Position numbers and translations under genes: made by a program. Of a DNA stretch of 47,386 nt, positions 422 to 47,386 are shown one piece after another. This stretch comes from Armatimonadota bacterium. GTDB lineage: Bacteria; Armatimonadota; Chthonomonadetes; Chthonomonadales; CAJBBX01. The DNA lies in the NCBI GenBank assembly GCA_026392115.1, contig JAPLCQ010000137.1, positions 1 through 47,386 on the forward strand, given 5' to 3'. Below the pieces are notes generated by a model. The model saw only the letters and a list, made by a program, of their open reading frames with translations. It did no database searches and was not told the origin of the DNA. Every line of letters begins with the position of its first letter. The stretch's first letter is position 1.

Positions 422-1302
422 CGCAGACCCAGCCTTGCGCAGACCATCTCGGCGGCGGCGGCCTCGGGGAGGCAGCGCAGGCGGTAGACGGGCACGCCTT
501 GCAGGATGTTCAGCGCGGCGCCCATGGCCGCGCCCACCAGCGCCGCGTCCCAGTAGGGCAGGAATGAGCGCGCCAGCAGCATGGGCAGGGCCTCGGCGGC
601 CGTGAGCGGCGTCAGTTCGTTCTCCGTATGCTGCTCCAGCACGATGATGGCGGCCAGCGGCGCGCAGGCGTTGACGGCGATGCCGGCCGTGCCCGCCCAT
701 GGCGTGCCGTAGACGAGCCGGCGACCGGCGTCGGCCCGGATGGCCGCTCGGTCGTCGCAGAGCGGACGCGCGCCGACGGCCTCCTGCCAGAGCATGGCCT
801 GCGTGCTCTTTCCGGCGCCGCTGTGGCCCGTCAGGATCACGGCGGCGTCACCCACCTGCAGGGCGGCGCCATGCATCACCAGGCTATCGTGCAGCACCAG
901 ACGGGTCCTGATCAGTAGTTCGGCGGCGCCGGCGGTGATCACAGACTGCCAGAGGCCGGGCGAACGCTTCTCCGTCAAGACCGCGTTGCGCCACTTGGCG
1001 TCGATGGAAAGCAGGGCCGGAGGGCGCGGAGCGTCGTCTGGAGATGGATAGGTGATGACCGCGGTCCAGGAGCCGTCGGCTCCCGCGTACATGCTCCAGA
1101 TGTCCTCGGCGGTGTAGTCCGGCTTGCCCTCGGGGGCAACGGGCTCGCCGAAGCGGCAGACCACGCGGATGTCGGGCTCGCCGTCGCCGTCGGCAAGGAA
1201 GGCGCCGTACCGCTCGTCGACGCCCAGATCGGCGGGCGGGGCCTCGGTCTCAAGCGCCAGGCGAAGCCCGGCGATGCTCAGGTCGATTCGGTGCGTTGGC
1301 AT
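418..1302 (-). CDS. HprK-like P-loop protein (HPr-kinase/PEPCK-type fold)
   Basis: This 294-residue protein has a Walker A motif GHSGAGKST at residues 159-167, preceded by LVMHGAAL (about 142-149) and followed by LCDDRAAIR (about 181-189). That order is typical of HPr-kinase-like proteins found in exopolysaccharide and peptide-modification loci rather than true HPr kinases. The first 130 residues are a variable N-terminal region. The start chosen is the ATG at 1302, since the longer open frame upstream is Pro/Arg-rich and does not look like protein. Upstream is apbE with a 34-bp gap; downstream the stop overlaps the tagA-like start. The substrate is unknown: kinase function is inferred from the family, and the link to cell-surface glycan assembly is inferred from its neighbours. 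Confidence 0.75.
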   Translation of the reverse strand: MPTHRIDLSIAGLRLALETEAPPADLGVDERYGAFLADGDGEPDIRVVCRFGEPVAPEGKPDYTAEDIWSMYAGADGSWTAVITYPSPDDAPRPPALLSIDAKWRNAVLTEKRSPGLWQSVITAGAAELLIRTRLVLHDSLVMHGAALQVGDAAVILTGHSGAGKSTQAMLWQEAVGARPLCDDRAAIRADAGRRLVYGTPWAGTAGIAVNACAPLAAIIVLEQHTENELTPLTAAEALPMLLARSFLPYWDAALVGAAMGAALNILQGVPVYRLRCLPEAAAAEMVCARLGLR

Positions 1303-1336
1303 GTCGGCGGGCGGCCCCCAGGAGTGTCTGCAGATA

Positions 1337-2299
1337 TCATACCCGTCCGGCGTCGGGCGGCTCGGGAACGGAAAGCAGCGTGAAGCCGGGGCCAAGCGTG
1401 CGGGCGGCCCGTCCGCCGGCCGCCAGCCTGGGCGCCCAGAGCGCGGAGAGACCTTCCACATCGCTCAGGCGCCGGAGGCCCTCGCGGCCCAACACGAGCA
1501 GGGCGGTCGAGTAGGCATCGCCGGCCTCGGCCGAGGGGTGCGCCACCGCCGCGAGGAGGCTTGCGGCGGCGGGCTTGCCCGTGCGGGGGTCCATGACGTG
1601 GCCCAGGCCGCCGACGGTGCGACCGTGCGGCGCGGAGACGGACATGGCGCCCTCGGCAAGCTCCACCCGGGCCATGGGCCCTTCGGCTCCGGGGCCCGGG
1701 TCGCGGACCAGCGCCTGCCACGGCCCTCCGTCGGGCGTGGCGCCCATGGCCGCGGCTGTGCTTGTGCCGCCGTGGACCATGGCGCCCTTCAGGCCGCATT
1801 CGCGCAGCGCGTCCATGGCGGCGTCCACGGCATAGCCCTTGCCCACGGCTCCCAGGTCCAGCCGCACGGCGTCGGAGGCGAAGGCGACGGTTCCGGCGTC
1901 GAGGTCCAGCTCCAGCTTGTCCATGCCCGTGGCGGCCCTCGCCGAGGGCCAGTCGCCCGCGGGTTCGCCCCGGAAGCCCCAGGCCCGCATGAGCGGACCC
2001 ACGGTGACGTCGAAGGCGCCGCCGGTCTGCTCGGTGTACCGGGCGCAACGCTCGAGCAGCCGCAGCACGCGCCGATCGACGCGCAGCGGGCCTTGCGTCT
2101 CGCGGGCGTTGAGCTGGGCGATCTCGGCGGCCGGGTCGAAGGCGCTCAGGAGCCGCTCGGCGGCCTCGATCTCGCCCATGGCCTCGGTGGCGGCGGCCTG
2201 CAGCCTCTCGAAGGCGTCGCCCCACAGCACGATGTCGAACTGGGTGGCCATGGCGCGGCAGGAGAAGACGCTGCAGCCGGGCGGCGCGCCCCGGCTCAT
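1337..2299 (-). CDS. apbE: FAD:protein FMN transferase (ApbE family)
   Basis: The 320-residue product matches ApbE, which covalently attaches FMN to Ser/Thr in target flavoproteins such as RnfG/NqrC subunits. Visible landmarks are AMATQFDIVLWG near the N-terminus, DLGAVGKGYAVDAAM in the middle (FAD/Mg binding), and HVMDPRTGKPA and DAYSTALLVLG towards the C-terminus (Mg and substrate site). Its ATG at 2299 overlaps the TGA of the upstream membrane protein. There is no obvious lipobox: the N-terminus SRGAPPGCSVFSCRAMAT has Cys residues but no clear hydrophobic signal. The partner flavoprotein is not in the window. The upstream DUF6784/6785-like membrane protein is a possible client only by position. 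Confidence 0.9.
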   Translation of the reverse strand: MSRGAPPGCSVFSCRAMATQFDIVLWGDAFERLQAAATEAMGEIEAAERLLSAFDPAAEIAQLNARETQGPLRVDRRVLRLLERCARYTEQTGGAFDVTVGPLMRAWGFRGEPAGDWPSARAATGMDKLELDLDAGTVAFASDAVRLDLGAVGKGYAVDAAMDALRECGLKGAMVHGGTSTAAAMGATPDGGPWQALVRDPGPGAEGPMARVELAEGAMSVSAPHGRTVGGLGHVMDPRTGKPAAASLLAAVAHPSAEAGDAYSTALLVLGREGLRRLSDVEGLSALWAPRLAAGGRAARTLGPGFTLLSVPEPPDAGRV

Positions 2300-4197
2300 G
2301 GGAAAAACCCGTAGGTAACGTGGTCCGTCAGGGCGGCGTAGAGCGAAAGCCCGCCGCCGGCCAGGCATTCGCCCACCACGAGGCCGATGAAGAGCGGCGC
2401 GGCGGTTCGGTAGGCCTTCTGCCCGCCGTAGCGCATGAGCACGCCCTTGATCGCCCATCCGGCCATGACGGAGCCCCAGAGCCAGGACATGGTCCACGAG
2501 CCGGCCAGCGCGTAGCCCACCGGGTGGAACGGGAAGCCCACCACCCGCGCCCGCACGGCCAGCAGGGCCAGCGTGAGTCCCAGACCTGAGCCGAACTGCT
2601 GCCACACGGCGAAGTCCGGTCCGCGGTTCGTGGCGGTGAGCCACTGGTCCAGCCGCGTGTAGGACTCCTTGGCCAGCATGGTCCAGCCCGAGCCCGGCTG
2701 CGCCACGCGGACGATGGCGCCCCGGTCGTACATCACATGGGCGTAGGCCCAGAACCAGCAGACGAACGCCCACGCGCTGATCAGCAGGACCGCCCAGACA
2801 ACGCTCCGGGTCGAGAGCCCCGCCTCGCCGGCGAGCTTGTAGCTCTCCAACTGGTGCGGCATGGCGCTGCTCCGGTAGTCCCGCGTGAACCAGTGGAACT
2901 GCGACATGACGGTCATGTCCCGCGCGGCGAAGGCGCCCGGACCGGCGGCCGTGGTCATGATCCGTTCGGGACCGGAGAAGTAGAGGTCGTGCGTGGCCGG
3001 GCCGAGCTCCGCCCTCATGCGCGTGGCGGCGGTGACCAGCAGGAAGAAGAGCGCAAGGAAGAGCCCCGCCACCGCCGGGCTCAGTCCCATGGCGCGGGCG
3101 CAGGCCATGAGGCCCAGGAAGCCGCCGATGCCCCCGAACACCGCCGCACGGTAGGGGAGCGGCTCGTGGCCGTCGTCGATCCGCGAGCGGGGGCTGAATG
3201 CGTGCTGTAGGGCCCACAGGAGGTGCTTCCGGGCTCCCCAGAGGGCCACGAGCCCGATGCCGATCCAAGCGCCGGAGGACTGGTCGCCCATATAGGCGCC
3301 GCCCAGGGGCTCCATGCCCACGGCAGACCGGGCGATCATCTGCGCCTTCCAGACCCAGTAGAAGAACCATGAGGCGAAGGCCAGGTCCAGCGGCACGAAG
3401 TAGGTGAGGCCCACGGCGAATGGGTAGAGGCAGAGCGGGGTCCAGCCCATGTCGCTCCAGGGCCGCTGCGTCATGAACTGCTGCAACTCGTTCCGCAGCC
3501 GCATGGAGGGGAGCGCCGGCCAGACGGTGGCGGCGGCGTTCCAGAGGTCCAGCCCTGCCGCCAGCGCGAAGCCCGCCCAGAAGAGGCGCGATCCCAGAAG
3601 GCGGTCGGTGTGTACCAGCATCTCGGTGGGGATGCGCACCAGCGGGAACGAGAGGCGCTCATGCTCGGTCCACTGGCGGCGGAGAAGCGTGGTGAGGCAG
3701 GTCATGGTCCAGAGCAGCAGCATCATGAAGCCCAGCCAGACCGCCAGAGGCGCCGCCCAGGCGCGGAGTGCGGCCCACCGGTAGGGGTTGGCGCTGCCGA
3801 GCCAGACGGCCTTCAGCTCCGCAGGGTCGGTCACCACGAGCCATCGGGGCAGGTGCTGCCGAACCGCGTCCACCCACGCGCCCCCGCCCTCCATCTGGCG
3901 GTAGGGGTAGATCAGCATATTTGCCAGCACCTGCAGGAAGTCGTGCCCGTAGACGGCCGTGGCGGCGCTGAGGAGGATGTAGAGCCCCGCCAGTTCGGCT
4001 GTGCTCAACGCCAGTTTGGGCGCGCGCCGGCGCAGCCAGAGGTTGCCCAGGGTGACGAGGAAGAGCGTGGCCACCACGTTGAAAAAGACCGACAGCACGG
4101 AGGCGTGGACGAACGCCCAGACGACCTCCGACTTCACGATCCAGAGCGCGTGGATCGGCGCCAGAAGGAACGCGATGACCAGGACCCGGCGCGTCAT
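2296..4197 (-). CDS. Large multi-pass membrane protein (DUF6784/DUF6785-like)
   Basis: The 633-residue protein has about a dozen hydrophobic segments, starting with an N-terminal one at residues 5-25 and ending with several near residues 520-620. The arrangement, with the long loop WTEHERLSFPLVRIPTEML and the conserved stretches SAVGMEPLGGAYMGDQSS and RAELGPATHDLYF, fits the DUF6785/DUF6784 membrane family seen in Planctomycetota- and Armatimonadota-type genomes, with some likeness to OPT-type transporters. No function is established. A weak GAGG ribosome site precedes the ATG, 6 bp after the GT39 gene's stop, and the stop overlaps apbE, so it is mid-operon. Transport of an oligosaccharide or peptide is only a guess. 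Confidence 0.7.
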   Translation of the reverse strand: MTRRVLVIAFLLAPIHALWIVKSEVVWAFVHASVLSVFFNVVATLFLVTLGNLWLRRRAPKLALSTAELAGLYILLSAATAVYGHDFLQVLANMLIYPYRQMEGGGAWVDAVRQHLPRWLVVTDPAELKAVWLGSANPYRWAALRAWAAPLAVWLGFMMLLLWTMTCLTTLLRRQWTEHERLSFPLVRIPTEMLVHTDRLLGSRLFWAGFALAAGLDLWNAAATVWPALPSMRLRNELQQFMTQRPWSDMGWTPLCLYPFAVGLTYFVPLDLAFASWFFYWVWKAQMIARSAVGMEPLGGAYMGDQSSGAWIGIGLVALWGARKHLLWALQHAFSPRSRIDDGHEPLPYRAAVFGGIGGFLGLMACARAMGLSPAVAGLFLALFFLLVTAATRMRAELGPATHDLYFSGPERIMTTAAGPGAFAARDMTVMSQFHWFTRDYRSSAMPHQLESYKLAGEAGLSTRSVVWAVLLISAWAFVCWFWAYAHVMYDRGAIVRVAQPGSGWTMLAKESYTRLDQWLTATNRGPDFAVWQQFGSGLGLTLALLAVRARVVGFPFHPVGYALAGSWTMSWLWGSVMAGWAIKGVLMRYGGQKAYRTAAPLFIGLVVGECLAGGGLSLYAALTDHVTYGFFP

Positions 4198-39082: not shown

Positions 39083-41020
39083 ATGACCCTCGAGCAGCTT
39101 GCCCAACTCTCGCCGGCCCAGTGGTTCTTCGACGTCCGCGACCAGTTGAAGAACCATGTATACGGTCGCTCCGAACGCGCGTTCGCCGCGGGTGACGCCG
39201 GCCGCGACGCCTTGGCGACGGCGGAGCAGGTGGCCGAGCGGCAGGCCTGCGTCCGTGAGCGGTTCGCCGCGTCGCTTGGAGGCCTGCCCTCGTCGGATAC
39301 GCCTATGGAGCCGGTCATCACCGGCGTCATACTGCGCGACGGCTTCCGCATCGAGAAGGTCATCTACCAGTCGCGCCCGCGCCACTACGTCACCGCCAAC
39401 CTCTACGTGCCGGATGGGCTGGAAGGGCCGACGGGCGCCGTGCTCTTCCTCTGCGGCCACGCCGAGGTCGCCAAGGCCTACCCGGAGTATCAGGCCGTCT
39501 GCCAGCGCCTGGCGCTCGCCGGGCTCGTCGTGCTGGCGCAGGACCCCATCGGTCAGGGCGAGCGGCTCAGCTACTGGGACGCCGCCGGCCGATCGGCCAC
39601 AGTAGGAGCCTGCTGCCCGGAGCATGACCACGCCGGGGCGCAATGCGTGCCGCTGGGCGACTTCCTGGCCAGGTACTTTGCCCACGACGCCATGCGCGGC
39701 CTGGACTACCTCTCCTCCCGGCCCGAGGTCGACCCCGCCCGCCTTGGCGTCACCGGCAACTCGGGCGGCGGCACGCAGTCGTCCCTGCTCATGCTTCTCG
39801 ACCCGCGTCTGGCCGCGGCGGCGCCGGGCACCTTCATCATGAACCGCGCCACCTACCAGCGGACGGGCGGCGCGCAGGACGCCGAGCAGATCTGGCCCGG
39901 CTTCACCGCCGCGGGCTGCGACCATGAGGATATCGTCATGGCCATGGCGCCCAAGCCGGTGCGCGTCCTGGCGGTGACCGATGATTTCTTCCCTATCGAG
40001 GGGACCCGCCGCACAGTCCAGCGGTGCAAGCGCATCTGGGGGCTCTTCGGCCGCGAGGAGTGCGTCGACCTGGTGGAGGATGTCTCCGGCCACGCCTACA
40101 CGCCGCCGCTGGCGCGAGCCGCCACGGCCTTCTTCACGCGCCACCTGCTGGGCCGCGAGGTGGTGGTGGACGAAGGGCGCGTTGCCCCGTTGGCCGCGTC
40201 GGACCTCTGGTGTACTCGCTCGGGGCAGGTGCAGGGCGAGGTCGCAGGCGCCGAGTTCGCCTTTGAGGCCAACCTGGGCCGCCTACAGGAAGTGACCGCG
40301 GCCCGTACCGCGGGGCTCTCCGCCGAAGCGGCCGATTGGCTCCGCGAGCAGGTGTTGCGTGACCGGACGCCGTGCGACCTCAACCCCCGCGTCTACCTCC
40401 GCACCGACTGGGAGGGGCTCCCCGTGGAGGCGCGCGTCTGGTGGTCGCAGGAGGGCCTGATGGGCCACTCGCTTCTCTTCCGCCCGGCCGAGGCGGCCGA
40501 CAACGCGCGGCTGACGCTGGCGGTCTGGGACGGCGGATGCTCTGCCGTGGCCTGTCGCGCCGAAGCCATCCGCAGCGCCTGCGCCGCCGGGCGGGCCGTA
40601 ATGGTGCTGGACGTGAGTGGCATGGGCGCACTGAAGCCATTCCCGCTGAACGATGCCTACCCAACCGATGGCTTCTACGGCGTCATCCACAAGCTCTCGG
40701 ACGATCTGATGTGGCTCGGCGACAGCCTCTGCGCGCTACGCGTCTACGACGTGCTGCGGGCGCTGGACCTCGCCGTCATCATTCCGGGGCTCGACGCAAG
40801 GCGCATCGACGTTCTGGCGGCGGGGAAGTGCGGCATCTACGGCCGCCTGGCCGCGGCGCTGGACGACCGGATCGCCTCCGTAGACCTGGCCGGCGGGCCT
40901 ACGTCCTGCGCCGCCTGGGTAGGGGAGCGCCTCTACGACAGCGACAACGTCAAGGCGCTGCTTCTGCCGGGGATGCTGCGCTGGTTCGATCTTGCGGACT
41001 TGCCGGCCGGCCCCAGATAG
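39083..41020 (+). CDS. Alpha/beta-hydrolase, acetyl-xylan-esterase-like (no signal peptide)
   Basis: The 645-residue protein has a hydrolase fold with nucleophile elbow GVTGNSGGGTQ, a candidate acid in VTDDFFPIEG, and the His in DVSGHAYTPPLARA. The C-terminal 250 residues (from about 395) resemble a second, inactive hydrolase lobe, as in the paralogue at 8255-10159. Unlike that one it has no signal peptide, so it acts inside the cell. AAGGAG precedes ATG 39083, 3 nt after the broken GH35 gene. Role: removing acyl groups from imported sugars (inference). Confidence 0.82.
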   Translation: MTLEQLAQLSPAQWFFDVRDQLKNHVYGRSERAFAAGDAGRDALATAEQVAERQACVRERFAASLGGLPSSDTPMEPVITGVILRDGFRIEKVIYQSRPRHYVTANLYVPDGLEGPTGAVLFLCGHAEVAKAYPEYQAVCQRLALAGLVVLAQDPIGQGERLSYWDAAGRSATVGACCPEHDHAGAQCVPLGDFLARYFAHDAMRGLDYLSSRPEVDPARLGVTGNSGGGTQSSLLMLLDPRLAAAAPGTFIMNRATYQRTGGAQDAEQIWPGFTAAGCDHEDIVMAMAPKPVRVLAVTDDFFPIEGTRRTVQRCKRIWGLFGREECVDLVEDVSGHAYTPPLARAATAFFTRHLLGREVVVDEGRVAPLAASDLWCTRSGQVQGEVAGAEFAFEANLGRLQEVTAARTAGLSAEAADWLREQVLRDRTPCDLNPRVYLRTDWEGLPVEARVWWSQEGLMGHSLLFRPAEAADNARLTLAVWDGGCSAVACRAEAIRSACAAGRAVMVLDVSGMGALKPFPLNDAYPTDGFYGVIHKLSDDLMWLGDSLCALRVYDVLRALDLAVIIPGLDARRIDVLAAGKCGIYGRLAAALDDRIASVDLAGGPTSCAAWVGERLYDSDNVKALLLPGMLRWFDLADLPAGPR

Positions 41021-41062: not shown

Positions 41063-42322
41063 CTACGCCTGTACGTGGGCCAGGGGGGTGTGGCAGCCGT
41101 TGCAGCCGGTGCAGACCGCCTGCTCGCCGCGCTGGGCCAGCCATGAGCGCACCTTGGCGCAACGGACGGGCGGCACGTCGGTCTTCAGGCCGGCCAGGCG
41201 GCCGCGGAACTTGGCCGCGTCGTGGCCCGGTGCGGCCGCCAGGGCGCGGGTGGCGAACGCCGCACCGGCGGAGCCCAGGCGGCCGGCGGCGTAGAGCAGG
41301 ATGCTCTTGTGCTCGCCGGACGGCTTGGCGCCCGAGGCGGCGGCGTCGGCGATGGCGCCCACCACGGCGCAACCGCCCACAAGCTGCTGCACGGGCGCGC
41401 CGTAGCGGCCGCTGAGAGCCTCCTGCACCGCCGGCGAGTCGCCGGCAGGCGTTAGGCCCAGGATGGGCGCGGGACGGCCGTCCGCGCCGAAGCGCGTCTT
41501 GAGGTAGGTGAAGCCCTCGCTTGCAGGGGTCACCGCGGTCTTGGCCTCGTTCACCGCCAGCCCCAGCTTGTCCAGGGCGCGGGCGAACGCCGCAAGGGCG
41601 TCGTAGGCCTCCTCCTGGGTGCGGCACGCCACGGCCATGTCGTCGCAGAAGCGGACGACGCCGGGGTAGCGGAGCTGCGCGCCGCGGTCGAAGCCCTTGA
41701 GGTACAGGTTGCTGAGCAGGTTGGAGACCGGCGCGCCCTGGCAGAGGCCGCGGGCCGGACCCGGCGACTGGGCCTCGACCTGGCGCATGACGGCGTCGAC
41801 CAACGCTGCATCGTCGGTCACGCGGGCCACGGTCTCGCGCATCAGGTCGTGCGGGATGCTGTCGAAGAAGCCGCGGACGTCGGTGCGCATGATCCACGGG
41901 CGGCCGGCGGCGATGGCGCGCGACAGGGCGTCGAGGGCCGTGGTCGAGCAGTGGCCCGGGCGGTAGGCGTGGTTGACCTGCGGGTTGCCGACCTCCACCG
42001 TCGGCCGGAGCGCCGCGCACATGGCGGCCTGCACCACGCGGTCGCGGACGCTCACCAGGCCGATGGTGCGCGCCTTGCCGTCGGGCTCGAGGAACGTCAC
42101 GCGCTTGGCAGGCAGGGGCTCGTAGGTGCCGGTGCGGAGGGCGATGCCGATCGCCTCCAGGTTCGCCTCGGCGTTGCGCGCGAACCCGCCCACGGTCTGG
42201 CCGTCGACGCCGGGGCAGCGGCGACGCTCGGCGACGCGGCCCCATGCGGTGGCCAGCGAACGGCCCTGGGCGATGCCCTCCAGGCTCGGGCGGGCGGTGG
42301 TGCGGCAGGCGGAGGTGTACAT
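41063..42322 (-). CDS. Reverse transcriptase RT-1 with C-terminal five-Cys (PriL-like) module
   Basis: The 419-residue protein starts at ATG 42322 behind GAGAGGGG. The RT palm is clear: RTIGLVSVRDRVVQAAM (motif 2 region), HAYRPGHC, the first catalytic Asp D148 in MRTDVRGFFD, GLCQGAPVSNLLSNLYL (motif 4/B), and FCDD at 225-228. The C-terminal 100 residues carry C318, C388, C404, C407 and C410. The core GRLG...PPVRCAKVRSWL...TPL aligns with the end of RT-2. No maturase X or endonuclease domain is present, so it is not a standard group II intron protein. It lies downstream of the unknown 42509-43138 gene in a minus-strand operon. Role: probably cDNA synthesis linked to spacer acquisition (inference). 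Confidence 0.88.
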   Translation of the reverse strand: MYTSACRTTARPSLEGIAQGRSLATAWGRVAERRRCPGVDGQTVGGFARNAEANLEAIGIALRTGTYEPLPAKRVTFLEPDGKARTIGLVSVRDRVVQAAMCAALRPTVEVGNPQVNHAYRPGHCSTTALDALSRAIAAGRPWIMRTDVRGFFDSIPHDLMRETVARVTDDAALVDAVMRQVEAQSPGPARGLCQGAPVSNLLSNLYLKGFDRGAQLRYPGVVRFCDDMAVACRTQEEAYDALAAFARALDKLGLAVNEAKTAVTPASEGFTYLKTRFGADGRPAPILGLTPAGDSPAVQEALSGRYGAPVQQLVGGCAVVGAIADAAASGAKPSGEHKSILLYAAGRLGSAGAAFATRALAAAPGHDAAKFRGRLAGLKTDVPPVRCAKVRSWLAQRGEQAVCTGCNGCHTPLAHVQA

Positions 42323-42390
42323 GGCGATGGCCCCTCTCCGATCGCAGCCGGGCCCTGATGCCGGACGCGCGCGCAACCGCGGCGAACGGC

Positions 42391-42482
42391 GCCCCGCATG
42401 GTGCGGGGGTCAGGCCAGGCGATCCGCCGCTTCCGCAGCAGACCGCGATCTTGTGGGCCCCGCAGGGAGGCCCAGGAGGGGC
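42391..42482 (-). promoter_or_regulatory. Structured leader element, copy A, upstream of RT-1
   Basis: This region shares with 43209-43310 a 25-nt block (42391-42415, 22 of 25 identical; plus-strand core GCCCCGCA, GGT, CGGGGGTC) and a 9-nt block CCGCGATCT (42443-42451). The 25-nt block folds as CCCCGC/GCGGGG. A second hairpin TGGGCC/GGCCCA lies at 42454-42474. On the minus strand the element ends about 69 nt before the RT-1 start. Confidence 0.65.
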
Positions 42483-42508
42483 GGCACGGGGCCGCCGGGT
42501 CGGGCTAT

Positions 42509-43138
42509 CTATCCGGCAACGGCTGCGGCTGATGGTCGGATCGGCGGCGCCCGTCTCGACCCGGCTTCCGGAGCCTCATCGTCAGCGATGAGGCCCAGTT
42601 CGCGAGCCGCCGCGTGGCCGTAGCGGCGGATGTCGCGGCAGTAGTTGGAGCGGAGGACCGCCGCCGTGGCCGTGAGGCCGAAGCGGCGATGCATGGCCTC
42701 CGCCACGTCATCCCAGTCGGTATCGTACGTCAGGCGCAGCCCCGCCGCGTAGGCCCGGTGGGTCGGCATGCCCACGGCGTCCAGCGCGCGGAGGAGGTCC
42801 CCCGCGGTGAGGCCCTGAGTGCGCTCCTCCGCCGGCATCTCGTCGCGCAGCTCCAGACGCATCTGGGCCAGCGGCGAGCGGGCAAGGGCGGCCAGGGTGC
42901 GGCGAACGCGGCTGTAGTAGGTATGCCGCGCCACGCGCATCTGGTCCTCGGCCGGCAGGTGGGACGCGCAGCGGCGGACCCACGCGGCGATGGCGTCGGC
43001 GACGTTGTAGACCGCGTCGATGCCGTCCGGGATGGACTGCACCGAGGCGCGGGCGGCCAGGCGGTCGGCGGCAAGGCGCAGCTGCAGCCAGACCTGCTCG
43101 TGGGTGCGGTCCTGCGGAGCGGCGGAGGATGCGGTCAT
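42509..43138 (-). CDS. Unknown protein encoded upstream of RT-1
   Basis: The 209-residue protein is predicted largely helical and soluble; I recognise no family. It starts at ATG 43138 with GAAGGGG about 10 nt upstream. The N-terminal third (THEQVWLQLRLAADRLAARAS, DAVYNVADAIAAWVRRC) is amphipathic helix. The last third, DWDDVAEAMHRRFGLTATAA followed by VLRSNYCRDIRRYGHAAARELG, has the look of a helix-turn-helix or sigma region 4-like segment. It has its own consensus promoter and a copy of the leader element upstream. It may regulate the locus or act as an RT partner; both are guesses. Confidence 0.7.
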   Translation of the reverse strand: MTASSAAPQDRTHEQVWLQLRLAADRLAARASVQSIPDGIDAVYNVADAIAAWVRRCASHLPAEDQMRVARHTYYSRVRRTLAALARSPLAQMRLELRDEMPAEERTQGLTAGDLLRALDAVGMPTHRAYAAGLRLTYDTDWDDVAEAMHRRFGLTATAAVLRSNYCRDIRRYGHAAARELGLIADDEAPEAGSRRAPPIRPSAAAVAG

Positions 43139-43208
43139 GGTTCGGAACCCCTTCCGACCGCGATGCCTCAACCCGCGCTACCCACCCGGAATCCGGGCGA
43201 CCAGTGCA

Positions 43209-43310
43209 GCCCCGCAAGGTACGGGGGTCGGGCGAGGGACCACCCGGAGGCGGTCCGCGATCTGGGGGTTCCCGAACGGAGGGGAACCGAAGCCGCACCG
43301 GGCAACCATC
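43209..43310 (-). promoter_or_regulatory. Structured leader element, copy B, upstream of the unknown gene
   Basis: Block 1 lies at 43209-43233 and block 2 (CCGCGATCT) at 43255-43263, 46 nt apart by start versus 52 in copy A. A 7-bp perfect hairpin GGTTCCC (43267-43273)/GGGAACC (43282-43288) follows, and GGACC/GGTCC lies between the blocks. The element is inside the transcribed leader of the promoter at 43328-43356 and ends about 70 nt before the start codon, matching copy A's position. Confidence 0.65.
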
Positions 43311-43327
43311 ACTCCGTGCGGATCGCC

Positions 43328-43356
43328 AGTATATAACCAACCCAGCCCGTTGTCAA
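43328..43356 (-). promoter_or_regulatory. Consensus sigma70 promoter for the unknown-gene/RT-1 operon
   Basis: On the minus strand TTGACA (43351-43356) and TATACT (43328-43333) are separated by exactly 17 nt. Transcription would begin near 43321, giving a leader of about 183 nt that contains element copy B. This is one of the few AT-rich stretches of the region. Confidence 0.8.
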
Positions 43357-43366
43357 CCCCTGACGC

Positions 43367-43384
43367 CAAATTCGAGCAAATTCG
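43367..43384. repeat. Direct repeat CAAATTCG x2, 10-bp period, in the divergent promoter region
   Basis: CAAATTCG occurs at 43367-43374 and 43377-43384, one helical turn apart, just outside the -35 of the minus-strand promoter. It lies between the two divergent arms, so it could bind a shared regulator. The rest of 43385-43477 shows only GC-rich sequence and the AAGGAG site of the next gene; no plus-strand promoter is clear. Confidence 0.4.
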
Positions 43385-43477
43385 CGCCGGCGCGCCGCAT
43401 CTCGACGGCCGTGCGCCTTGAGTCCATGGAGCGGCGCCGTCTGAGCGGTCGCGCCGCCAAACCAGAAGGAGATCCCG

Positions 43478-44344
43478 ATGCTCGAAGCCCTGTTCGGTAT
43501 AGGCAGCCTCATCATATCCACCATCGCCCGCGTCTTCCGCGATACCGTGAAGGCCATCGTGCTGGAGGCGGTCCGGGAGATCATCCAGCCGCGCCCCGGG
43601 ACGGCCGCCGCCTCGCCGCGCCACATGGCCGACGTGACGAGCGCCGACCACCAGATCGAGGACCTGGAGCGGAAGCTCAGCCGCGACGGATGCCTCTCGA
43701 CCCGCGACGCCGAGACGCTCGACGAGCTTCGCCGCAGACGCGATGCCGCCGCCTCCGCCTACCGGAAGGCCCGTGCCGGCGAGGTGGCCGCCGAGGCCGG
43801 GGGCAGCGATTATGTCTCCCCGATCCTCGACCCGCGCCACGCCAACGTCCTGCAGTACCACACCGGCACCCTGGTGTTGGAGAAGCGTTGCCCCGCCTGC
43901 GGGTGCCCCATGGCGCTCCAGCACCGGACCGTGCCCGATCCCGAGCTGGGCGACTTCTTCTGGGCCTGTACAGCGTTCTACGACGGCCGCAAGTGCAAGC
44001 CGATCCCATTCCGCCCGGCCGATGTGCAGATGATCCACAAGGCCGGCATACCGGAGATGGAGGTCGACCGCCACGACATTGCCATTATCGGCAGGCAGCC
44101 GGTGGTGCAGGAGTCGGTCCGCCGCCGCGTGGCCGAACATGTGGGCGAACCCGACGACCATGTCCTATGCCCGATGCACCACCGCCCTATGGTCCTGAGA
44201 CAGAAGAAGGAGCACGACGGCACCGTGCTCGACATGTACCACCTGCGCTGCGTCCACGACGGCTGCTCGCAGATGATGAAGCTCAAGACCCTGCCCCAGT
44301 TGGCCGCCTACCTGCGCCGATCCGAGGGGACGGGGATCGTGTAG
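43478..44344 (+). CDS. Zinc-ribbon protein with hydrophobic N-terminus, CRISPR/RT-associated
   Basis: The 288-residue protein begins with a hydrophobic then amphipathic helix (MLEALFGIGSLIISTIARVF), followed by a probable coiled coil (about 56-100: HQIEDLERKLSRD, LDELRRRRDAAASAYRKA). Two cysteine clusters follow. The first, CPACGCPMALQHRT with FFWACTAFYDGRKC, resembles the topoisomerase I C-terminal zinc ribbon that binds single-stranded DNA. The second is CPMHHRPMVLRQKK with LRCVHDGCSQMMK. AAGGAG precedes ATG 43478. It is 53 nt upstream of RT-2 in the same operon. I know no named family; nucleic-acid binding, perhaps at the membrane, is inferred. Confidence 0.75.
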   Translation: MLEALFGIGSLIISTIARVFRDTVKAIVLEAVREIIQPRPGTAAASPRHMADVTSADHQIEDLERKLSRDGCLSTRDAETLDELRRRRDAAASAYRKARAGEVAAEAGGSDYVSPILDPRHANVLQYHTGTLVLEKRCPACGCPMALQHRTVPDPELGDFFWACTAFYDGRKCKPIPFRPADVQMIHKAGIPEMEVDRHDIAIIGRQPVVQESVRRRVAEHVGEPDDHVLCPMHHRPMVLRQKKEHDGTVLDMYHLRCVHDGCSQMMKLKTLPQLAAYLRRSEGTGIV

Positions 44345-44397
44345 GACGCCCTGCGCCGCGATCGCCGACAACCCATGCTTCAAGGAGGAAGCAACCC

Positions 44398-45870
44398 ATG
44401 GAGACCTATGCAACCTACCAGAGCGCCACCACCACCAGCACGACGGGCCGATGGCTGCAGTCGCCTGTCGCCGCCATGCCCGCCCCGCGTCCCGCCGAGG
44501 CCCGGGGAGCCGCGCCCATGACGCCGTCGGGCCTCGACCTGGCCGACGTGGCGGACCGGGCCATGCTGCAGGAGGCCTGGGAGCGCGTCCGCACCCGCAG
44601 CGGCTTCCCCGGCCCCGACGGCGAGACCGTGCCGGAGTTCGCCCGCCGCGCCGGGGAGTCGCTGGCCATCATCTCACGGGCCCTGCTCGAGGGCAGGTAC
44701 GAGCCCGGACGCCCGGACCGCCGCGAGGTCGCCAAGCCCGGCGGCGGCCACAGGCTCTTCACGGTCTACAACGTCCGCGACCGGATCGTCCTGCAGGCCA
44801 TCCGCCTGGCGATGCGCCCCGCCGTCGAGCGGGCGCTGTCGCCGTGCAGCTTCGCCTACCGGCCGGGCCTCTGCGCCGCCGACGCCTCGCGCCGGGTCGA
44901 GAAGATCATGCTGCGCGCGACCTGGCTCGCCCGGGCCGACGTCGCCGGGTTCTTCGACCATGTCCGCCTGGACCTGCTCCTGCCCCGGATCGCCGAGCTC
45001 GGAACCGATGCCGGCTTGCTCAATCTGGTCCGCCGTGCGCTGGACGCCGGCGCCCTGCGGCCGGGCGTCGGACTGCCGCAGGGGTCGTCGCTCTCGCCCA
45101 TGTTCAGCAACCTCTATCTCGCGGCCGTGGACGCCGAGATGATCGCCGCCGGCGCCCGGTTCGTGCGGTACGGCGACGACATCATCTTCGCCTGCCGCAC
45201 CTCCTCCGAGGCCAATGCGGCCCTGCGCCGCGTCGCGGAGGCCGTGGGTCGGCTTGGCCTCTCGCTGAACCAGTCCAAGAGCGGCGTCCAGCCGCTGTCC
45301 GACGGCTTCTGCTTCCTGGGGGTCGACTACGGCTCTTCGGCCTGCGTCTCCACGCCTCCCGTGATGCCGGAGCTGCTCCCGTCGCCGGAGCCGGAGCCGC
45401 GCGAGCCCGAGCCGCCTCGCCCCGCTCCCGCCCGCTGGACCGGCGGCGTGGCGCAGCTGGCCCGTCAGTGCACCGTCCTGCCCGGCATCGAGGCCCGCGC
45501 GGCCCGCGAGCGGAACCTGCCGCACAACGAGCGCGTCATCGTGCTGTTCACTGCGGGCCGGCTGGGCGACGAGGGCGGGCGCTACCTGCATCAGGTCATG
45601 TCGCACTGCTCCGACTACAGCCGCTCCATCTGCGACCGGCGCCTGGCCGAGCTGGACCGCGAGCACCCGCCCATCACCTGCGGCAAGATCCGTGAATGGC
45701 TCGCTGCCATGGGCGACGCGGGGCTCTGCGCCTGCGGCCGGACCTGCCGGACGCCGCTGGACGGCCTGCTGGAGTCGCCGCGCGCCGTGGGCGGTCCGCC
45801 CACCCGCACCCGGGCCGCCGCCGGAGAGCCCTGGCGTCAGGTCTCGGCCGACATGTTCGACGACGAGTAG
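44398..45870 (+). CDS. Reverse transcriptase RT-2 with C-terminal five-Cys (PriL-like) module
   Basis: The 490-residue protein starts at ATG 44398 behind AAGGAGGAA. The RT domain (about 50-310) shows YNVRDRIVLQAIRLAM, FAYRPGLCAADA, D181 in ARADVAGFFD, GLPQGSSLSPMFSNLYL, and YGDD at 258-261. A Pro/Glu linker (about 322-345) leads to a module with C358, C428, C444, C446 and C450. The core is LFTAGRLGDEGG, then PPITCGKIREWL and CRTPL. The C358-C428 and C428-C444 spacings (70 and 16) equal those in RT-1. cas1 follows 11 nt downstream. It probably makes cDNA for Cas1-Cas2 integration, by analogy with RT-Cas1 systems; the C-terminal module may add a primase-like or structural role (inference). Confidence 0.92.
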   Translation: METYATYQSATTTSTTGRWLQSPVAAMPAPRPAEARGAAPMTPSGLDLADVADRAMLQEAWERVRTRSGFPGPDGETVPEFARRAGESLAIISRALLEGRYEPGRPDRREVAKPGGGHRLFTVYNVRDRIVLQAIRLAMRPAVERALSPCSFAYRPGLCAADASRRVEKIMLRATWLARADVAGFFDHVRLDLLLPRIAELGTDAGLLNLVRRALDAGALRPGVGLPQGSSLSPMFSNLYLAAVDAEMIAAGARFVRYGDDIIFACRTSSEANAALRRVAEAVGRLGLSLNQSKSGVQPLSDGFCFLGVDYGSSACVSTPPVMPELLPSPEPEPREPEPPRPAPARWTGGVAQLARQCTVLPGIEARAARERNLPHNERVIVLFTAGRLGDEGGRYLHQVMSHCSDYSRSICDRRLAELDREHPPITCGKIREWLAAMGDAGLCACGRTCRTPLDGLLESPRAVGGPPTRTRAAAGEPWRQVSADMFDDE

Positions 45871-45881
45871 GAGGTCAACCG

Positions 45882-46877
45882 GTGAGCGTACTCTACGTGC
45901 AGGAGCAGGGGGCGTGCATCCACAAGGCCGGGGGTCGCCTCCTGGTGAAGAAGCAGGGATCCACCCTCGGCTATGCCCACCTGCGGGACCTGGACCGGCT
46001 GGTGCTGGTGGGCGCCGTGGAGGTGAGCACCCCGGCCATGGCGGCCCTGCTGGACGGCGGCATCGACATGGTGCTCCTCTCGGCCGGGGGGCGCCTGCGG
46101 GGTCGGCTGGCCGCCCGCGAGAGCAAGAACGTCGACCTGCGGCACACGCAGTTCCAGCGGTACGAGGAGACCGGTTTCCGCCTGGCCATGGCCCGCACCA
46201 TCGTGGCCGGCAAGATCCGCAACGCCCGCTTCCTGGTGCAGCGGTTCGGGCGGAACCATGCCGAGGTCGACGTGGAGGCCGCCGTCGCCGCGCTGGACCG
46301 CTCGCGGCATCGGCTGGACGACCAGTCCGACGCGGCCGCCGTGCTGGGCGTGGAGGGCGACGCGGCGCGGGTCTACTTCGAGGCCTTCGGGCGGATGCTA
46401 CTGGGCGGGTTCACCTTCACGGTCCGCTCCCGCCGCCCGCCTCGCGACCCGGCCAACGCCCTGCTCAGCTTCGGCTACGCGGTGCTGGAGGGGGAGGTCA
46501 CGGCGGCGCTGGCCGGTGAGGGGCTCGACCCCACGGTGGGCATGCTGCATGAGCTCGACTACGGCCGCCCGTCTCTCTCGCTGGACCTGCTGGAGGAGTT
46601 CCGGCAGCCGGTGGTGGACCGCCTGGTGCTGAGCCTCGTCAACCGACGGGTCTTGCGCGAGGAGCACTTCGAGGCGGGTTCCGAGGGCGGTGTCCGGATG
46701 AACGACGCCGGGAGGCCGCTCTTCATCGAGTTCTACCACCGCGCCATGGCATCGGAGTTCGAGGACCGCACGGCCGGCGAACGGACGACCTTCACCGGGA
46801 TCATCCGGCGGCAGGCGCGGCGGATGCGCCTGGCGCTGGCCGACGGGTCGGCCTACGAGCCGTTCGGCCAGCGCTGA
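45882..46877 (+). CDS. cas1: CRISPR-associated integrase Cas1
   Basis: The 331-residue protein matches Cas1. The N-terminal beta domain is LYVQEQGACIHKAGGRLLVKK and DRLVLVGAVEVSTPAMAALL. The helical domain's metal ligands are E158 (GVEGDAARVYF), H223 (MLHELDYGRPSL) and E238 with D235 (LDLLEEFRQP). Together with Cas2 it integrates new spacers. The start is GTG 45882, with AGGAGG 7 nt upstream. It is not fused to an RT or Cas6, unlike the better-known type III RT-Cas1 proteins. All active-site positions look intact. Confidence 0.97.
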   Translation: MSVLYVQEQGACIHKAGGRLLVKKQGSTLGYAHLRDLDRLVLVGAVEVSTPAMAALLDGGIDMVLLSAGGRLRGRLAARESKNVDLRHTQFQRYEETGFRLAMARTIVAGKIRNARFLVQRFGRNHAEVDVEAAVAALDRSRHRLDDQSDAAAVLGVEGDAARVYFEAFGRMLLGGFTFTVRSRRPPRDPANALLSFGYAVLEGEVTAALAGEGLDPTVGMLHELDYGRPSLSLDLLEEFRQPVVDRLVLSLVNRRVLREEHFEAGSEGGVRMNDAGRPLFIEFYHRAMASEFEDRTAGERTTFTGIIRRQARRMRLALADGSAYEPFGQR

Positions 46878-46889
46878 GGAGGCGTGGAG

Positions 46890-47171
46890 ATGGTTCGAGC
46901 GCGCTACGTGATCGCCTACGATCTGGAGGCCGACAAGGGGCGCCGCAAGCTGGCCAAGTTGCTGGAGGGCTACGGCGAGCGGATGCAGTTCAGCCTCTTC
47001 GAGGCCGACCTGAGCAAGGACGAGCTGGCCGAGGTGCTGGCCAAGGCGTCGGAGTGGGTGAAGAGCAACGACAGCCTGCGCGCGTACCCGGTATGCGCCT
47101 CCTGCTGGGCCAAGGCGGAGACGCTGGGGCGCAGCCAGGAGGCGCCCCTGCCCGGCCTGAAGATCGTGTAG
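46890..47171 (+). CDS. cas2: CRISPR-associated protein Cas2
   Basis: The 93-residue protein has the Cas2 ferredoxin-like opening MVRARYVIAYDLEADKGRRKLAKLLEG's strand 1 with Asp in YVIAYDLE, then RMQFSLFEADLSKDEL. It bridges Cas1 dimers in the integration complex. AGGAGG lies 7 nt before ATG 46890; a GTG at 46884 is in frame but too close to that site. The tail has CASC (after RAYPV), a pair seen in some Cas2 proteins. It closes the visible cas operon. Confidence 0.95.
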   Translation: MVRARYVIAYDLEADKGRRKLAKLLEGYGERMQFSLFEADLSKDELAEVLAKASEWVKSNDSLRAYPVCASCWAKAETLGRSQEAPLPGLKIV

Positions 47172-47208
47172 CGGCGCGGGGTAGACTCGCCGAAGGGAGG
47201 AGTGAGCC

Positions 47209-47382
47209 ATGGGACCAGGTAGCCGTTTGCCGCTAACCTCCGCAGAGGCCCAAAACAGGGGGTGGTTAGCGGCAGGATTTGAGCGTGGGGGACTTGGCAA
47301 CAAGCCCGATTCCCGCTATACTGGGTGCAAGCGGGGGGCGGTTAGCGGCGCCAAGCTCGATTTTCGAGCGGAGTGGTCCTAA
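47209..47382 (+). CDS. Possible 57-residue ORF after cas2
   Basis: ATG 47209 follows GGGAGGAG by 7 nt, and the frame stays open for 57 codons to TAA 47380. The sequence is Gly/Arg-rich and matches no family I know. It contains both direct copies of the GGTTAGCGGC motif and a consensus promoter, so the region may instead be a non-coding leader. Only the ribosome site favours coding. Confidence 0.25.
   Translation: MGPGSRLPLTSAEAQNRGWLAAGFERGGLGNKPDSRYTGCKRGAVSGAKLDFRAEWS
47229..47349. repeat. Three copies of the 10-mer GGTTAGCGGC near the right edge
   Basis: One inverted copy (GCCGCTAACC, 47229-47238) and two direct copies (47264-47273 and 47340-47349). The direct copies are 76 nt apart, each preceded by a G-rich run (GGGTGGTTAGCGGC, GGGCGGTTAGCGGC), and diverge straight after. 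A GCTCGA/TCGAGC hairpin lies at 47355-47369. Possibly a CRISPR leader or an outward regulatory region; no array repeat can be defined. Confidence 0.5.
47294..47322 (+). promoter_or_regulatory. Sigma70 promoter pointing out of the window after cas2
   Basis: TTGGCA (47294-47299) and TATACT (47317-47322) are 17 nt apart. Transcription would start near 47329 and leave the window, as expected for a CRISPR leader or a downstream gene. Confidence 0.6.
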
Positions 47383-47386
47383 CGCC

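Follow-up and report, generated by a model that had tools for sequence, protein, structure and literature searches.

The stretch of DNA analysed here (the window; 47,386 nucleotides, contig JAPLCQ010000137.1 of assembly GCA_026392115.1) represents an entire contig (C36) of the 5.7 Mb draft genome of an Armatimonadota bacterium (G000), and close to its right end it carries two genes for stand-alone reverse transcriptases (RTs), RT-1 and RT-2, next to cas1 and cas2. The locus is probably a CRISPR (clustered regularly interspaced short palindromic repeats) adaptation module, in which two RTs akin to the CART-CAPP proteins, i.e. RTs combined with a CRISPR-associated primase-polymerase (CAPP), would make primer-independent cDNA of phage RNA or DNA and hand it over to Cas1-Cas2. 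The domain content of the two proteins, the absence of the primase-polymerase (PrimPol) core and the relatedness of RT and Cas1 to CART-CAPP modules were directly established, and the locus was linked to array and effector through the identity of the repeats and through synteny.

The C-terminal domain shared by the two reverse transcriptases

RT-1 (41063..42322, minus strand, 419 amino acids [aa]) combines the fingers-palm part of a group II-like RT, with FCDD at position 225, and a C-terminal domain (CTD; aa 305-419, 41066..41410, minus strand). RT-2 (44398..45870, plus strand, 490 aa), which is located directly before cas1-cas2, contains a group II-like RT with YGDD at position 258, a proline-rich linker, the CTD (aa 346-455, 45433..45762, plus strand) and a terminal WRQVSADMF motif. 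This arrangement agrees with an earlier note made from the sequence alone, which had described two different RTs on opposite strands beside cas1 and cas2. The profile RVT_1 matched both proteins with E values of about 1e-24, and all catalytic Asp residues are kept in the alignment.

The tails of RT-1 and RT-2 could be aligned without gaps over 109 aa with 32% identity (pairwise E=1e-14), hence their likeness is beyond chance. The NCBIfam model NF040561 (CRISPR-associated primase-polymerase type A1) matched the RT-2 tail with E=1.4e-16 and the RT-1 protein with E=1.2e-3, both matches covering the same part of the model, about positions 366-474 of 515. Moreover, the RT-1 tail aligned to the CTD of a CART-CAPP from another Armatimonadota genome (G051, locus L032) with E=1.7e-18 in tblastn. 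Because of the NF040561 matches and this alignment, the tail of both proteins is, as judged by sequence comparison, the CTD of CAPP proteins, and a CTD of this type was identified in all seven members compared, RT-1 included. Zabrady 2021 (PMC8211822) described the CAPP CTD as PriCT-like and as having conserved cysteines. Accordant with the expectation of the earlier note, the tail thus resembles those of CRISPR-associated primase-polymerases, and the PrimPol part found in the relatives belongs to the AEP-TOTE family; the placement in an unrelated zinc-finger family, which the note had named as one of two results that would refute its view, did not occur. A Pfam search with the CTD gave no family, and a search of PDB sequences with a CTD profile gave no match.

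The cysteine positions given before (C318/C388/C404/C407/C410 in RT-1 and C358/C428/C444/C446/C450 in RT-2) are correct, as are the spacings of 70 and 16 residues in both proteins. The module is indeed shared by both RTs; its conserved cysteines, however, number four instead of five. Among seven homologous tails, C358, C428 and C444 (RT-2 numbering) are invariant and C446 is present in six, while the fifth cysteine (C410 in RT-1, C450 in RT-2) is restricted to the two window proteins.

When RT-1 and RT-2 are aligned to their relatives, the alignment stops after RT motif 7 and restarts at the CTD, hence the thumb and the PrimPol are missing from both window proteins. No PrimPol core was found between RT and CTD or anywhere in the window and the linked contigs C165 and C186, and a search with NF040561 in three genomes of the genus revealed none either, the other matches lying only within the first 110 model positions. 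A PrimPol encoded elsewhere and acting in trans was considered and not found in these searches.

Kinship with CART-CAPP proteins

The CTD was found in 7 of 291 Armatimonadota genomes, namely the window genome, its congener G003 and five others. Four of the latter (G006, G049, G051 and G208) encode one protein each with the order RT-thumb-PrimPol-CTD, in which the PrimPol matches Pfam AEP-TOTE, and in G037 the same parts occur in separate frames adjoining cas1-cas2. RT-2 shares with the CART-CAPPs the terminal motif W-x2-[VIL]-x2-D-[LM]-F (45832..45858, plus strand). In the RT tree, RT-1, RT-2, the lone RT of G248 and the CART-CAPPs with a forkhead-associated (FHA) domain group together (92/96), apart from RT-Cas1 proteins and group II introns; the tree leaves the sisterhood of RT-1 and RT-2 unsettled. 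The window Cas1 is 48-54% identical to the Cas1 of CART-CAPP loci compared to 39% for the other Cas1 of the same genome (contig C143), a kinship judged by identities alone because the Cas1 tree had no supported forks. That other Cas1 belongs to a separate CRISPR array (L004:1-300 and 774-3600), whose adjacent genes are type I-C-like on reading. Outside the Armatimonadota, insensitive pattern scans were applied: CTD patterns run against 84,980 species returned three loci, all from Armatimonadota, and scans of similarly low sensitivity of viral contigs (only a distant RT), phages (with the PrimPol-CTD of a relative as query) and plasmids returned no relative with this tail. Collectively, the comparisons suggest that RT-1 and RT-2 derive from the CART-CAPP proteins of the same phylum or have a common source with them, each keeping only RT fingers-palm and CAPP CTD.

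Compared to the published CART-CAPPs of Caloramator australicus (CCJ33120) and Geobacillus lituanicus (PMC10415136), the window RTs have in common the group II-like RT, the CAPP CTD, the gene position before cas1-cas2 and the association with type III CRISPR, whereas they differ in lacking thumb and PrimPol and in being encoded by two RT genes. The class A CAPPs, such as the TPR-AEP-PriCT protein of Marinitoga piezophila (PMC8211822; NF040561), possess a homologous CTD with conserved cysteines; in contrast to the window proteins, they have no RT but an active archaeo-eukaryotic primase (AEP) and a TPR domain. A third group comprises the stand-alone RTs beside cas1-cas2 of Maridesulfovibrio zosterae (PMC10415136) and of G248 (L017), in which the RT gene is also separate from cas1; however, the G248 RT is single and has no CTD, while both window RTs carry one. 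The RT genes of the window are fused neither to cas1 nor to Cas6. The statement of the earlier note that known CRISPR RTs are RT-Cas1 or Cas6-RT-Cas1 fusions or single RTs omitted the published class with RT, PrimPol and CTD (PMC10415136). The locus is best filed as a variant within this class of CRISPR-associated RT-primases rather than as a separate class, and we have not found its layout with the PrimPol lost described. In the open-licence literature (most subscription journals and supplementary tables being outside this scope), neither an RT-CTD protein without PrimPol nor two RTs in one CRISPR adaptation locus were encountered.

In three Armatimonadota loci (L032:5555-9567, L033:2139-6150 and L031:450-4461), the CART-CAPP has an N-terminal FHA domain and its gene is placed directly after a protein kinase gene and before cas1-cas2. 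In a fourth locus (L030:661-3732), the kinase is accompanied by an RT and a PrimPol-CTD that are split. The FHA domain and the kinase gene suggest a phosphorylation-controlled spacer acquisition in these CART-CAPP loci, for which we found no literature report.

Array, effector and genomic site of the module

Downstream of RT-2 follow cas1 (45882..46877, plus strand; PF01867, E=2.5e-90), cas2 (46884..47171, plus strand; PF09827, E=1.4e-19) and the leader of a CRISPR array (47172..47375, strand unspecified) that contains three GTTAGCGGC/GCCGCTAAC copies. The end of the contig falls inside a repeat, of which the first 11 nt of GTCCTAACGCCGGGGCCATGCCATCAGGCGTTGAGAC are present (47376..47386, plus strand). 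These 11 nt, GTCCTAACGCC, are identical to the start of the 37-nt repeat in the array with which contig C165 begins. On C165, the array is followed by a CARF-RelE protein, by Cas10d, Cas5 and Cas7 of type III-D (PADLOC), and then by tRNA-Lys(CTT) and chromosomal genes. The congener G002 has neither of the two RTs nor a Cas10; there, that tRNA-Lys and the chromosomal genes seen on C165 (85-88% identity) come directly after the gene at 39083-41020, hence G002 represents an empty site, which supports the order C36-C165. By repeat identity and synteny, the locus thus appears to be the adaptation module of a type III CRISPR-Cas system, heading an array and effector cluster of type III-D, with Cas10d, Cas5 and Cas7 beside the array, next to tRNA-Lys. 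Between the type III-D genes and tRNA-Lys, a 700-aa protein without PADLOC match is encoded (L041:11916-14018), which is mostly shared with G003 at 99%.

The RT pair has been seen in just two genomes, that of the window and G003, which carries the same dual-RT module with DNA identities of 98.9% for RT-1 and 99.4% for RT-2. The second refuting result named in the earlier note, a lack of co-occurrence of the two RTs in any other genome, has thus not occurred either; however, the second genome is a congener with nearly identical sequence, and the two can hardly be regarded as independent. At the end of the G003 module stand 28 nt of another repeat, and contigs carrying this repeat encode a type III-B effector; the right flank of the module again reaches the tRNA-Lys side. 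Hence, a module about 99% identical accompanies different repeats and effectors in the two genomes, the effector being of type III-D in the window genome (L041:1-14709) and of type III-B in G003 (L040:1-11464). In G003, leader and repeat occur once more, in inverted orientation, at the far end towards tRNA-Lys (L062:1-200, contig C179), so that two arrays appear to face each other.

It is very improbable that the RTs just happen to lie beside cas genes, as remnants of group II introns or as a two-RT defence system like DRT3. The group II RT profile does match with 188-193 bits, DRT profiles match weakly, and DRT3 also employs two RTs (PMC13174585), but the CTD is of the CAPP type, RT and Cas1 are both related to CART-CAPP modules, and the pair is present in the congener with a type III effector (G003) and absent from the one without (G002). 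DRT3 resembles the window locus in having two different RTs in one immune locus; it differs in that it has no CRISPR link and no CAPP CTD, one of its RTs copying an RNA while the other is protein-templated (PMC13174585). A group II intron maturase was rejected, because the scores of 188 and 193 bits stay below the cut-off of 300 and neither a thumb nor a domain X/maturase part is present. An identity as DRT was likewise rejected in view of the grouping of the RTs with FHA-type CART-CAPPs in the RT tree.

The region 43139-43477 is a divergent intergenic region, from which P0005 and RT-1 extend leftward and P0006, RT-2, cas1 and cas2 rightward. It contains a strong sigma-70-like promoter match (TTGACA-17-TATACT, 43356-43328, minus strand) facing P0005-RT-1, with one match found versus 0.1 expected. 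P0005 (42509..43138, minus strand, 209 aa) lies in line with RT-1, and P0006 (43478..44344, plus strand, 288 aa) has Cys pairs resembling zinc ribbons and is confined, within the class, to the two dual-RT genomes; family profile searches assigned neither protein to a family. The DNA of P0006 (43478-44341) is identical in both congeners, whereas the adjacent genes differ by about 1%.

RT-1 has unusual features. Its motifs B, C and E differ from the common forms, with FCDD, SN for SP in motif B and YLK for FLG, it represents the longest branch of the RT tree (1.7), and it has lost the HLRH-like motif and the terminal WxxVxxDMF motif. These features would fit the case that RT-2 alone were the working CRISPR RT and RT-1 a diverged duplicate, be it structural, regulatory or decaying, an explanation that we consider rather unlikely. 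This explanation fits badly with the complete set of catalytic Asp residues, with the divergent promoter-like site that RT-1 has of its own, and with the frame, which is intact in two genomes that differ by 7 silent and 7 replacement changes in RT-1 (ratio about 0.37, with too few changes for a firm test). RT-2 shows 9 DNA and 4 protein changes between the same genomes, and selection is hardly measurable because there are just 9-14 DNA differences per RT gene.

Fold and possible role of the C-terminal domain

The earlier note had compared the tail to the Fe-S domain of the primase large subunit, PriL. AlphaFold2 gave good models, with a pLDDT above 90 for the core of the RT-2 CTD and a mean of 93 for the CTD of G051. 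Among solved structures, Foldseek placed a PriL Fe-S domain at rank 1 for both models and at ranks 1-4 for the G051 CTD, albeit with weak E values of 1.6 to 4, and after re-alignment with VIA-align, PriL Fe-S domains and PriX alone were listed for both models (Z 4.3-5.6). In hhalign comparisons with human and yeast PriL, the HLRH motifs and the second cysteines were aligned with each other, while 11 of 200 shuffled profiles did as well as the real one. Both models thus have a PriL Fe-S domain as their first-ranked solved structure, with weak scores and borderline profile support. On the basis of these models, we consider a helical PriL/PriX-type fold of the CTD likely.

The Fe-S ligands of PriL are spaced 80-17-40. 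The conserved cysteines of the CTD are spaced 70-16-2, the first three thus being similarly spaced, while the distance from the third to the last is 2-3 residues, compared to about 40 in PriL. The window CTDs have no AEP partner. R306 of human and R355 of yeast PriL are essential for initiation (PMC5700102). By motif count, this residue can be taken as the last one of HLRHGGR, and the corresponding place would be occupied by Arg in RT-2 and in L007, L014, L016 and L030, by Lys in RT-1 and by Asn in L015 (G051). PriCT domains have been related to the PriL Fe-S domain (Kazlauskas 2018, PMC5862659), and according to that paper PriCT-type tails occur exclusively in those archaeo-eukaryotic primases that belong to mobile elements.

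The RT domains of two CART-CAPPs have been shown to start DNA synthesis without primer on RNA and DNA, while their PrimPol is inactive and the authors could not say why it is kept (Zabrady 2023, PMC10415136). A related Cas6-RT-Cas1 protein uses primer-independent products for integration (PMC10415136). By analogy with these tested homologues, primer-independent synthesis and the hand-over to Cas1-Cas2 are likely for the window locus as well. RT-1 and RT-2 would produce short cDNA from phage RNA or DNA templates with a primer-free start; RT-2, probably together with RT-1, would supply the cDNA, and Cas1-Cas2 would insert it at the leader directly after cas2. The loss of the PrimPol while the CTD was retained suggests that the CTD works with the RT, in initiation, in the pairing of RT-1 and RT-2, or in both. 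It might hold the initiating nucleotide or the template, and it may also join RT-1 to RT-2, because the CTDs of a CAPP associate with each other: the protein self-associates partly via its CTD in yeast two-hybrid assays and binds Cas1 through the remainder (PMC8211822).

Several points weigh against such an adaptation module with CTD-assisted RTs. The RT domain of a published CART-CAPP alone primed as well as the full-length protein (PMC10415136), which speaks against a need for the CTD in priming; the start of cDNA without a conventional primer, which the earlier note had linked to the tail, does not require it, because RT domains prime by themselves in vitro. In the case of MpCAPP, it was the part without CTD that bound Cas1 (PMC8211822). 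RT-1 may be altered or partly disabled, because its motifs are unusual and its branch is long. Furthermore, the structural scores (Foldseek E of at least 1.6, Z 4.3-5.6) are weak and the profile test (11/200 shuffles) is borderline, and the contigs, which come from draft genomes, were joined through repeat identity and synteny rather than by a continuous read.

It is conceivable, although we do not expect it, that the CTD serves as a structural tail for zinc binding or dimerisation, with a function unrelated to priming, and that the RTs are ordinary stand-alone CRISPR RTs. The activity of isolated CART-CAPP RT domains (PMC10415136), the self-association of CAPP CTDs in yeast two-hybrid assays (PMC8211822), four Cys that could hold zinc and the weak PriL likeness by profile are all compatible with this explanation. 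It is less easily combined with the structural re-alignment, in which PriL Fe-S or PriX came out on top for both models and nothing else was listed, and with the Arg that would align with human R306 and yeast R355 (PMC5700102) in RT-2 and four CART-CAPP-type proteins. A more far-reaching and clearly tentative idea, which we hold to be improbable as it stands, is that RT-1 and RT-2 form a heterodimer via their PriL-like tails, in which the tail holds the initiating nucleotide and each RT starts one strand, resulting in a double-stranded prespacer for Cas1-Cas2. The sharing of strands by two RTs would have a precedent, by analogy, in DRT3 (PMC13174585).

The locus represents a natural deletion of the PrimPol with the CTD kept, in two RTs of one locus, and thereby separates the CTD from the PrimPol; hence, the service of the CTD to the RT and the cooperation of two RTs in spacer making become testable. 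If the fold assignment holds, a primase-type tail would be present on an RT without any primase. If the heterodimer exists, it would mean that PriCT-type tails have been passed from archaeo-eukaryotic primases to reverse transcriptases.

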